Positions 12 through 3,557 of a stretch of 43,668 nucleotides of DNA are shown here, one piece after another. Each line of letters starts with the position of its first letter. The first letter of the stretch is position 1. The notes under the pieces are model-generated. The model was not told the origin of the DNA. It did not search any database and saw nothing but the letters and a program-made list of their open reading frames with translations. Source of the stretch: Saprospiraceae bacterium (GTDB taxonomy: Bacteria > Bacteroidota > Bacteroidia > Chitinophagales > Saprospiraceae); assembly GCA_020627825.1 (NCBI GenBank), contig JAHDGD010000004.1, forward strand, positions 39,102 through 82,769, written 5' to 3'. Position numbers and translations under genes: made by a program.

Positions 12-572
12 TTAATGATCTAAAAAAATCAACTCACCTTCTGCATTAAAAGTCGCCGTCCGATGGCTTATATGAGTGTGTTTTGAAAGTTCTTCCTGAT
101 ATACAACGTCTGCTAAGTTAAATAAAGAAGTAGGGTGTCGACATGTCAATTCGTTGGACTGTTCTGTTCTTTTGAATGAATACATAAGCAGTGGATGTCC
201 TATCTTGTTTACTAATGTTTTATGAAAGTCTTCATGTACAATACGCATATGAACGTATCCTTTTTTGTTTAAACATGCAGGTGGTAAATTATGAGGATTG
301 TTAAACACCAATGTTAAAGGTCTGGTATTATAAACTAAAAATGTTTCTATTCTAGGATGAATTTTCTTAACATACTGCTTTAGCATTTGAACTGTAGATA
401 CTAAAACTGTTTTGGATTTATATAATATTTCGGGTTCAAGTTCAATAGTCTGTATTTCAAATTCTTTTTGAATGGTGCATAAAATGTCAATTGATGTTGA
501 AAATGGAAATAAAATAGATTTTCCATTAACTAAGTTAGCAGCACTTTCGCTTATTAATTTGTCATACTTCAT
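12..572 (-). CDS. Degenerate TsaC/Sua5/YrdC-like protein
   Basis: The middle and C-terminal parts follow the YrdC fold as found in Bacteroidota threonylcarbamoyl-AMP synthases. Residues 57-70 (LVSTVQMLKQYVKK), 84-91 (RPLTLVFN), 96-101 (LPPACL) and 108-112 (HMRIV) align by eye with the family segments for nucleotide and threonine binding. The usual N-terminal signature (PTDTxxGLGC) is replaced by PFSTSIDILC around residues 23-32. The KxR motif is not visible, and the STSANxSG stretch has become LLMYSFKRTEQS at 128-139. True family members use these residues for L-threonine/ATP chemistry in tRNA t6A synthesis, so this copy is probably not a normal TsaC. It may be a paralogue with another role. 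At 186 aa it is close to the normal domain length, so it is not simply truncated. It is divergent from the PKD protein and shares a 248-bp intergenic region with it. The family call is moderately secure; the function is unknown. Confidence 0.6.
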   Translation of the reverse strand: MKYDKLISESAANLVNGKSILFPFSTSIDILCTIQKEFEIQTIELEPEILYKSKTVLVSTVQMLKQYVKKIHPRIETFLVYNTRPLTLVFNNPHNLPPACLNKKGYVHMRIVHEDFHKTLVNKIGHPLLMYSFKRTEQSNELTCRHPTSLFNLADVVYQEELSKHTHISHRTATFNAEGELIFLDH

Positions 573-820: not shown

Positions 821-3094
821 ATGATGAAAAGGATTAAAATAACAATTGGGTTAGTCTGCCTTTTTTTATGTTCAGTACAAATAGGTTTTGCGCGTCATAT
901 CATAGGAGGTGAAGTGTACTATGATTGTTTAGGTATAGATAATTCTGGTACTGAAGACTTCGTAACATTTCGTATTACATTCAATATGTATCGTGATTGC
1001 TTTGGTGGAGGTGCTGATTTTGATTCTCCAGCAAGATTCGGATTATATAGAGGTTCCGGCGAAGACTGGATTTTCACAGAATTGTTTTCAGTTGTTCCAA
1101 ATCAAATATTTGATTTAGCAATTAATGATGATCCTTGTGTTGAAGAACCAAACAATGTATGTGTTGAACAAGCTATTTATGAATTTGATATTACAGTACC
1201 TATATTAGATGAATCCTATTTATTAGCATACCAAAGGTGCTGTCGAAATAATACAATTCTCAATATCGTAGATCCAGGTGAAACAGGAGCAGTATTTCAA
1301 GTAGAAATAAGCCCATTAGCTCAAGAGATTTGCAATGATTCTCCCACCTTTGATAATTTCCCACCTATAGTTGTTTGTGCGAATACACCGCTCGCTTTTG
1401 ATCATGCAGCAACGGATAATGAAGGCCATACTCTAGTGTATGAATTATGTACACCTTTAACTTCTGGTGGTACATTAGGTTCTAATGATAATCCGGGTGA
1501 CCCTGAATCTTGCGTAGGCGTTACTCCTAGTCCAATAAACTGTTTGCCTCTTTATGATGAAGTCATTTTTAAACAACCTAACTTTTCGGTAACAGAACCA
1601 ATGGGTACTGGGTCCAATACTACATTGAATAATTTCACTGGCTTGCTGACTACCACGCCACAATTTATAGGACAAAATGTGGTCGGTGTCTGTGTTCGAG
1701 AATTTTTAGATGGGCAACTTTTGAGCGAAGTAAGACGAGATTTTCAATTTAATGTTGCCGCTTGTCAAATTATTATTCAGGCAAATGTGGGGAACGATGA
1801 AGTCATTAAAGAACAAGAATTTTTGATTCGCTCATGTGGTGAATTTGACGTTCAGTTTGAAAATTTAAGTGAGGATAAAAATTTTATTGAAGAATATTTA
1901 TGGGAATTTAGTATCGGTGGAGAAGTTGTCACTTCCAATGAAGAAAATCCGAATATATCGTTTCCTGCAGTTGGAGATTATTTCGGACAATTAATAATAA
2001 ATCCAAATTCTACTGGTTGTCAGGATACAGCAAAACTTTTTATTGAAATAAGACCTGAAATTATCGCTGATTTTTCAGCAGTGTATGATACTTGTGTGGC
2101 AGGTGATGTTTCGTTTTTCGATGAATCGTTTACAGGGTCAGGAATTTTAACTAATTGGGAATACGATCTTAATCAAGAAGATACGGCGATCATAGCAGAT
2201 CCGTCTTACTTCTTTGAAGAACCTGGGTTAAAAGAAATTACTCTAAGAGTAGAAGATATTAATCAATGTGTGGATGATACTACTATTACACTGTCTTATT
2301 TTCCTATTCCAGGTGAAATTATAGTCGAACCCAGCTCATTTATAGGATGCTTGCCAGCATTCATTACATTTAATAATTTATCCACTCCTATAAGTGATGC
2401 GTATACAATATTATGGGATTTTGGCGATGGAAACCAAGATACAGTAATAAGTCCTACTCATTTATATGAAGACTTAGGAGAATTTTCTGTTCAGCTAGAT
2501 ATAACATCTCCTCTAGGATGTGAGACATCTGCTTTTTATCCGTTCCTGATTCAAACCCTTGAAAGTCCGGTAGCCGATTTTAGTTATACCCCAGACGAGG
2601 TCACCAGTAACAATCCTGTCGTTTCTATTTCAGATGAATCTCTTGATGCGATTTCTTGGCAGTATATCATAAATGATGAAGATTCTTTTTTTCAACCTAA
2701 TATAACATATGAATTTAGGGATACTGGAATTCAAGTGGTAGATCTTATTGTTTTACATCCTAGTGGATGTCCTGATACATTAAGGCAATTCATAGATGTC
2801 CAACCACTTTCTTCAGTTTTTATGCCGAATGCATTCTCTCCAAATGGAGACGGGAAAAATGATACATTTAAGCCGAAAGGTAACTTTTTTGGAGTTGAAG
2901 ACTATAGTTTAGCAATTTTTAATCGATGGGGTCAACAAGTTTTCTTTACAGAAGACCCCAATGATGGTTGGAATGGAAAGTTGAATAACTCAGGGAATGA
3001 TTCCCCAACAGGAGTTTATGTATATAAATTAAATTATATAGGTCCACGTAATAAAATTGTATCTGAAGAGGGATTTGCTACTATAGTAAGGTAA
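821..3094 (+). CDS. T9SS-exported PKD-repeat protein with CHU_C (gliding-type) C-terminus
   Basis: I start the gene at ATG 821 because the frame upstream (TTG at 722) encodes an unlikely 33-residue leader over the promoter. From 821 there is a good signal peptide: MMKRIK, a hydrophobic stretch, then cleavage near FA/RHIIGG. The first half is the HIIGGEVYYDCLG-type domain seen in many Bacteroidota surface proteins. About four immunoglobulin-like PKD-type repeats follow, with motifs such as WDFGDGN and ends such as SPLGC or SGCPDT. The last ~90 residues start at FMPNAFSPNGDGKNDTF and end in a short basic segment, which is the T9SS type B (CHU_C, gliding motility-associated) sorting domain. It is expected to cross the outer membrane by T9SS and act as a surface or extracellular protein, perhaps an adhesin. 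No enzyme motif is visible. Confidence 0.85.
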   Translation: MMKRIKITIGLVCLFLCSVQIGFARHIIGGEVYYDCLGIDNSGTEDFVTFRITFNMYRDCFGGGADFDSPARFGLYRGSGEDWIFTELFSVVPNQIFDLAINDDPCVEEPNNVCVEQAIYEFDITVPILDESYLLAYQRCCRNNTILNIVDPGETGAVFQVEISPLAQEICNDSPTFDNFPPIVVCANTPLAFDHAATDNEGHTLVYELCTPLTSGGTLGSNDNPGDPESCVGVTPSPINCLPLYDEVIFKQPNFSVTEPMGTGSNTTLNNFTGLLTTTPQFIGQNVVGVCVREFLDGQLLSEVRRDFQFNVAACQIIIQANVGNDEVIKEQEFLIRSCGEFDVQFENLSEDKNFIEEYLWEFSIGGEVVTSNEENPNISFPAVGDYFGQLIINPNSTGCQDTAKLFIEIRPEIIADFSAVYDTCVAGDVSFFDESFTGSGILTNWEYDLNQEDTAIIADPSYFFEEPGLKEITLRVEDINQCVDDTTITLSYFPIPGEIIVEPSSFIGCLPAFITFNNLSTPISDAYTILWDFGDGNQDTVISPTHLYEDLGEFSVQLDITSPLGCETSAFYPFLIQTLESPVADFSYTPDEVTSNNPVVSISDESLDAISWQYIINDEDSFFQPNITYEFRDTGIQVVDLIVLHPSGCPDTLRQFIDVQPLSSVFMPNAFSPNGDGKNDTFKPKGNFFGVEDYSLAIFNRWGQQVFFTEDPNDGWNGKLNNSGNDSPTGVYVYKLNYIGPRNKIVSEEGFATIVR

Positions 3095-3203: not shown

Positions 3204-3557
3204 ATGGACGCTATCAAATTTGTTGAAGAGCAACTATCGCAGAAGACAGAATTGCCTGCATTTAGACCAGGTGATAATGTAGCTGTAAGTTATAAAATAC
3301 GTGAAGGAGAAAAAGAAAGAATTCAAGTATTTAGAGGAGATGTTTTACAAATCAATGGTTCAGGAGGATCAAAAACTTTCACTGTTCGTAAAATGAGCAA
3401 TGGTGTAGGTGTAGAAAGAATTTTTCCTTTTGAATCTCCTAATATTGACTCTGTTCAAGTTCTTAAAAGAGGTAAAGTAAGAAGAGCAAAATTATATTAT
3501 CTTAGAGGACTAGTTGGTAAAAAAGCTAGAATCAAAGAAAGAAAGTACTCTAAATAA
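3204..3557 (+). CDS. rplS: 50S ribosomal protein L19
   Basis: L19 sits at the 30S-50S interface of the ribosome. The sequence is recognisable throughout: [28 protein letters not shown], then a gap, [21 protein letters not shown], and the basic end [21 protein letters not shown] prefer ATG 3204, giving [11 protein letters not shown]. This matches the usual Bacteroidota L19 start, and a TTG at 3180 would add only eight residues. The length, about 117 aa, is normal. The gene stands alone between its own promoter at 3115-3143 and a strong intrinsic terminator at 3576-3605, so it is monocistronic. Confidence 0.95.

Follow-up and report, generated by a model that had tools for sequence, protein, structure and literature searches.

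In the Saprospiraceae, the native tsaC gene has often been retained after losing its ATP-binding residues, and these losses accompany the presence of another TC-AMP synthase gene, nearly always Sua5. This link, together with the retention of the altered TsaC, is well supported by our sequence comparisons, and the old gene has probably been retired from TC-AMP synthesis and kept as a pseudoenzyme with a non-catalytic role. TsaC/Sua5 belongs to the small number of protein families that are nearly universal. Within this family of bacteria, a universal tRNA-modification enzyme appears to have been repeatedly replaced by a different one. The window, that is, the whole stretch of 43,668 nucleotides that was analyzed, carries one of the most eroded copies, in which the motifs are gone and one segment and the fold are kept. 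The features discussed here are as follows.

12-572, minus strand: tsaC-derived ORF, 186 aa, YrdC fold without catalytic motifs.
465-512, minus strand: former LxPTDTxWGxGCDATN stretch, now LFPFSTSIDILCTIQK, located by comparison with relatives.
429-443, minus strand: former KxR, present context ELEPE, located by comparison with relatives.
303-404, minus strand: retained segment, window residues 57-90, LVSTVQMLKQYVKKIHPRIETFLVYNTRPLTLVF, found by comparison; its core HPRIETFLVYNTRPLT is coded by 312-359.
171-185, minus strand: former STSAN, now MYSFK, located by comparison with relatives.
573-820, no strand: intergenic region between head-to-head genes; of 59 other Saprospiraceae loci tested, 58 are arranged in this way.
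821-3094, plus strand: HIIGG...PKD protein of 757 aa with a T9SS type B sorting domain (TIGR04131, PF18911, PF13585), the conserved divergent neighbor of tsaC.
3204-3557, plus strand: rplS-like gene, presumably encoding ribosomal protein L19 (named from its sequence); the cluster is present in 14 of 28 stretches compared.

The ORF at 12-572 runs uninterrupted over 186 codons from ATG to TAA, as had been described before. Its sole Pfam match is PF01300 (E 1.4e-9, 38.2 bits against a cut-off of 25.1, residues 14-147); the C-terminal SUA5 domain PF03481 is absent, and the TIGR00057 equivalog (30.7 bits) is far from its cut-off of 123.2. The same model gave 140.9 bits, above the cut-off, for L038, an intact copy from a congener, and 103, 107 and 54 bits, under it, for three other tetrad-lost copies. 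An AlphaFold model built with 49 sequences reached a pLDDT of 84.8 and a pTM of 0.83, and all 27 Foldseek matches below 1e-3 were TsaC, TsaC2, Sua5, HypF, YrdC and their kin, among them 1k7j, which we take to be YciO, and 1jcu, presumably a relative. Against TsaC2 (9dsq), the model gave a VIA Z of 15.1 and an rmsd of 3.2 with 171 residues aligned. That the ORF encodes a YrdC-fold protein, with a kinship beyond chance, is therefore confirmed. The preliminary description had both the central and the late parts following YrdC, which holds up to residue 147, where the Pfam match ends, but the late part is weaker.

According to PMC10321239, the KxR/SxN residues bind ATP, and T33, S181 and R195 of Pyrococcus abyssi Sua5 bind threonine. 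Mapped by motif spacing in the present analysis, the ATP-binding tetrad corresponds to K47, R49, S133 and N135 of L038 and the threonine set to T24, S173 and R188. In the window protein, YPTDTIWGLGCDATN of L038 has become FPFSTSIDILCTIQK, the K and the R of KxR are both replaced by E, STSAN reads MYSFK with S retained and N changed to K, and H stands in place of the PS serine and D in place of the C-terminal arginine. The tetrad now reads E, E, S, K and is lost, and the threonine-binding positions read F, H, D, with none of the three residues retained. All signature motifs had been described as replaced; this stands for the PTDTxxGLGC-type stretch, KxR and STSAN, apart from one STSAN serine that is kept. 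We infer from these sequences that TC-AMP synthesis has been lost in the window protein and in the other tetrad-lost proteins.

The gene had been taken for a paralogue. Synteny and the intact orthologues found at the same locus instead identify it, at the level of sequence, as the orthologous native tsaC of the Saprospiraceae, Sua5 being the patchily found synthase gene. Of 59 Saprospiraceae loci with enough flank, 58 have the gene head-to-head with the HIIGG/PKD/T9SS surface-protein gene, and so does the window; the layout is seen with tetrad-lost (28/29), intact (25/25) and partial copies (5/5) alike. An HIIGG domain lies within the fetched stretch in 14 of 14 named Saprospiraceae (13 plus L214, placed there by sequence), in 0 of 66 other named Bacteroidota loci (among the 80 best matches out of at least 596) and in 0 of 19 loci from other families of the order, where flanks are short. 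A single-domain TsaC orthologous to the window gene is present in 80 of 80 named Bacteroidota loci, which are the top-scoring ones among at least 596. Compared with its congeners, the HIIGG neighbor of the window is 65-74% identical and tsaC only 34-36%. A shared divergent promoter for the pair, within 573-820 upstream of 821-3094, is possible. A link between presence or absence of the HIIGG gene and tsaC was considered and rejected, the domain being found in 198 of 199 genomes.

Two further PF01300 proteins are encoded in the window genome: a Sua5 on contig C60 (195 bits), which holds the single PF03481 match of the genome, and a protein on C173 (148 bits) that we named YciO-like. With its motifs present, the Sua5, whose gene start falls at a run of N, is a second TC-AMP synthase gene, so that the proper synthase expected elsewhere in the genome does exist. 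The window protein itself was rejected as a YciO, as a TsaC-orthologue profile, with the window protein included in its build, gave it 188 bits versus 90 for the YciO-like protein, and it occupies the tsaC locus. The TsaD match of the genome is on contig C252 (L336, G000 C252:8754-9590), near an HIIGG-domain paralogue at G000 C252:6433-7347, which brings to two the t6A-pathway genes close to such surface-protein genes.

A total of 199 Saprospiraceae genomes were searched, 184 of them giving a match, some to other PF01300 proteins. As a query for related loci, the window protein alone gave no match; relatives were sought with it and then with a profile, and with synteny for a few genomes, and remnants devoid of the retained segment could have been missed because both queries contain it. 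The 141 native copies comprise 118 read first and 23 added from 41 genomes chosen as Sua5-positive or match-less; Sua5 or YciO-like rows (L001, L002, L035, L036) were excluded from the counts, as were duplicates of the window gene. Sua5_C (PF03481) was found in 82 of the 199 genomes. Among these 82, 71 were classified, G195 and G283 were read later, 8 yielded no native copy and G155 was left out; 70 of the 117 Sua5-negative genomes were classified.

The tetrad is intact in 74 copies, lost in both halves in 58 (all of them ORFs of at least 181 aa) and lost in one half, or partial, in 9. Intact copies, a lack of which in relatives the preliminary description had associated with pseudogene decay, are therefore plentiful, and L038 of the window genus is one of them. 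Tetrad loss coincides with Sua5 in 56 genomes and occurs without it in 2, whereas an intact tetrad is found without Sua5 in 67 and with it in 7; partial copies are divided into 8 with and 1 without Sua5. Fisher's test on the lost and intact classes gave 9e-27, a value inflated by relatedness. With one genome per genus, the numbers were 34 lost with Sua5, 1 lost without, 43 intact without, 4 intact with and 7 partial (1.8e-17). Seven genera differ internally in Sua5, and five were concordant (g1, g156, g143, g85, g98), two showed no difference (g84, g125) and none was opposite; G146, read from L291, enters only the per-genus table and these contrasts. Some genomes are incomplete (G251 is 61% complete), and an apparent lack of Sua5 may reflect sequence missing from the assembly.

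Another synthase gene is present in all 58 tetrad-lost genomes, Sua5 in 56 and a second TsaC beside tsaD in the other 2. This second TsaC, with K.R and TSAN, adjoins tsaD in G119 (L293) and lies between tsaB and tsaD in G262 (L313), gene names that we assume from the sequences; it is a replacement route distinct from Sua5. K.R, SAN and HY are present in each of the 21 Sua5-type proteins that were read, of which 13 come from the 56 tetrad-lost, Sua5-positive genomes; in the other 43, Sua5 was judged from the presence of the SUA5 domain alone. In one genome (G205, contig C112), Sua5 lies a few hundred bases from the tetrad-lost tsaC (L079), on the opposite strand. Among the 58 tetrad-lost copies, R49 is retained in 2 and N135 in 1, the replacements sharing no common residue, K47 in 29, and T24, S173 and R188 all together in 37.

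To fit the gene tree, the tetrad must have changed state at least 18 times, with partial copies scored as changed, and Sua5 at least 19 times. A single clade holds 35 rows, all tetrad-lost, and branches are mostly weak (39 of 157 starred). Only 4 independent pairs fall on well-supported branches (about 2 changing the same way, 0 opposite and 2 without difference), which is not significant. No native remnant was found in 8 of the 82 Sua5-positive genomes (G120, G137, G159, G228, G235, G254, G258, G277); for G120, G159 and G254, none was seen beside the HIIGG gene viewed, one of two HIIGG matches per genome, and for the other 5 the view of the locus did not settle absence. The retired tsaC would therefore be dispensable in some lineages.

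The best-retained part of the retired copies is, as far as the alignments tell, a Saprospiraceae-specific segment with the core pattern HPR[IL]ETLLxYHxRPLT, and not generic YrdC sequence. It was absent from 66 other named Bacteroidota copies (again among the 80 best matches out of at least 596) and from 19 copies belonging to other families within the order, all 19 of them with an intact tetrad. In the predicted model of the window protein, the segment comprises a strand (54-58), two helices (61-65 and 73-81) and a strand (86-91). Over L038 residues 58-91, intact copies match the intact consensus at an identity of 0.883 and lost copies at 0.834; outside this range the values are 0.900 and 0.642, respectively. 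Within the segment of lost copies, P74 is found in 58/58, R or K75 in 58/58 and P86 in 57/58; R75, E77, T78 and R85 rise after tetrad loss (from 0.74-0.77 to 0.88-0.95), and Y68, V69, T88 and Y91 at the segment edges drop. Outside it, D115, S150 and F186 gain conservation and W28, R111 and P128 persist, which indicates that the whole fold is constrained; the rise of outside residues also means that shared ancestry contributes, 35 of the retired copies belonging to one clade.

The segment boundaries were set by eye after viewing the window along with a few degenerate copies, before the later copies were found, and since the choice followed the data, it was tested on 20 retired copies found later and not used for the definition. 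These showed 71% identity inside versus 56% outside, and in 19 of the 20 identity was greater inside (p 5e-7, the rows not being independent). The window gene itself shows 82% inside versus 38% outside (Fisher 0.0018; scan-corrected p 0.0055). In genus g146, the remnants in G283 and G195 gave weak profile matches (in Pfam, none at all for one and a match under the cut-off for the other) and were identified by their place beside the HIIGG gene. They retain IHPRIDTLLSIH and IHPRVDTLISIH and, of the remaining conserved positions, roughly one in three. These two are the most eroded remnants, and in them the segment leads by a narrow margin, with 9/18 inside versus 17/45 outside and 8/18 versus 15/45.

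Selection was estimated on near neighbors in the tree, picked by hand as 16 "lost" pairs, one of which (L189/L190) includes a partial copy and gave no dS that could be used, and 14 intact pairs. Ratios were measurable in 7 of 16 lost and 7 of 14 intact pairs, the others being saturated. NG86 dN/dS was 0.05, 0.08, 0.05 and 0.10 for the four tetrad-lost pairs with dS under 1 (0.04-0.18 by YN00), and 0.11, 0.14 and 0.14 for three with dS of 1.45-2.2; the intact pairs gave 0.04-0.15. The low dN/dS anticipated for relatives is thus seen at 0.05-0.14, in lineages other than that of the window copy, which stays outside these figures because it has no close relative in the set (congeners are 34-36% identical). 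Where measurable, and on the evidence of these ratios, retired copies are under purifying selection like intact pairs, suggesting that they are not simply rotting.

For the window copy, the case is more delicate. Its genus holds an intact copy (G251), one without the KxR arginine (G305) and one with an in-frame TAG (G156), and its end branch, at 1.72 against a median of 0.4, is among the longest. A reading of the window ORF as a broken-frame pseudogene was rejected, its 186 codons being open, although its congener G156 does carry the TAG. In neutral, substitution-only simulations started from the congener's gene (400 runs per step), stop-free runs amounted to 2.75% at 10% divergence, 0.75% at 15% and 0/400 at 30%; the window and congener genes differ at 53% of aligned bases, of which an unknown share arose under selection. 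Under long neutral drift the window frame would hardly have survived, and a recent release from selection is possible. Because the copy is heavily eroded and G156 has its TAG, we regard the window copy as likely, and only likely, to be functional; decay of it is possible given this congener. The next mechanical ORF after the G156 TAG (L057 1669-2067) has a TTG start and opens at the segment, LVSNVSMLKQFVEDIHPRIETLL, so that a shortened protein is conceivable.

Taken together, the favored model is one where the native tsaC has been retired from TC-AMP synthesis and kept as a pseudoenzyme. The ancestral Saprospiraceae TsaC would have had two jobs, making TC-AMP and a function exerted through the HPR[IL]ETLLxYHxRPLT segment, in its simplest form docking to a partner. 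With another synthase present, the first job would be covered and only the second would still constrain the sequence, leaving a pseudoenzyme that might serve as a scaffold or adaptor. As its partner, the t6A machinery (TsaD, TsaB, TsaE, Sua5) would be the most economical candidate. A nucleotide- or RNA-binding role, as suggested in the preliminary description, is conceivable, but what these copies have lost is their ATP-binding tetrad. The window protein would be an extreme case, with the threonine-binding residues lost as well. The 7 Sua5-positive genomes that retain an intact tetrad count against the pseudoenzyme reading. A more specific version, in which TsaC became bifunctional by acquiring this segment and, after several Sua5 takeovers, survived as a threonine-responsive regulatory adaptor of t6A synthesis, is unlikely as it stands; many copies of such an adaptor would still bind threonine but would be unable to activate it, the threonine set being kept in 37 of 58 copies that have lost the tetrad.

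Slow pseudogene decay, with a dispensable tsaC at varied stages of erosion and the segment as its last recognizable piece, is the strongest competitor, if still a rather unlikely one. The stop codon in G156, the long end branch of the window copy, the 8 Sua5-positive genomes where no remnant was found and the little contrast in the two most eroded remnants would all fit decay. It does not sit well with the low dN/dS of the lost pairs, including the strongly diverged L199/L200 (0.10), with the open frames of at least 181 aa in 58 of 58 tetrad-lost copies, or with a retention that peaks in one segment and does so too in copies that turned up once the segment had been defined. We consider it quite improbable that the protein is still an enzyme, its pocket remodeled for another substrate: the joint presence of T24, S173 and R188 in 37 of 58 copies, and of K47 in 29, could be explained in that way, but R49 and N135 are almost always gone with no common replacement, and in the window copy all three threonine-binding positions have changed. 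That it is the DNA of the segment that is preserved, as an overlapping element or antisense gene, might be imagined for a gene with a conserved divergent neighbor and is very improbable, as segment dS in four close lost pairs is not consistently lower (0.47 vs 0.59, 0.12 vs 0.32, 0.91 vs 0.77, 0.42 vs 0.28) and no plus-strand ORF of at least 50 aa covers the segment in the window.

In the Saprospiraceae, a displaced enzyme often stays, minus its ATP-binding residues and with a preserved non-catalytic segment. If the pseudoenzyme reading is correct, a second function of TsaC, masked elsewhere by the enzyme activity, would be exposed, dozens of natural separation-of-function variants would be at hand, and homology-based annotation would mislabel these proteins as synthases. 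Our literature search, with most subscription papers outside it, returned no account of a retained tetrad-less TsaC in the Saprospiraceae, and the accessible part of PMC9654439 contains no word starting with "bacteroid."

Compared with TsaC/YrdC (L-threonylcarbamoyladenylate synthase), the window protein has the same fold, length and orthologous locus but lacks the tetrad and threonine residues, and what it keeps best is a segment found only in the Saprospiraceae. YciO resembles the retired TsaC in being a YrdC-fold protein beside a true synthase whose job it does not do in vivo (PMC12506659); it differs in that, according to the same paper, its active-site residues are largely conserved and it is likely a paralogue. 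The YciO-like gene of the window genome is a separate locus. PMC10321239 reports that TsaC and Sua5 are interchangeable and seldom found together, and the Sua5/TsaC exchange described in that paper, there by horizontal transfer, is like the present one in that one synthase supplants the other. The paper also describes a filter for KxR/SxN, which would have hidden tetrad-less copies. It gives the endogenous gene as lost in several cases and lists few species that have both, whereas in the Saprospiraceae the old gene persists without its tetrad.
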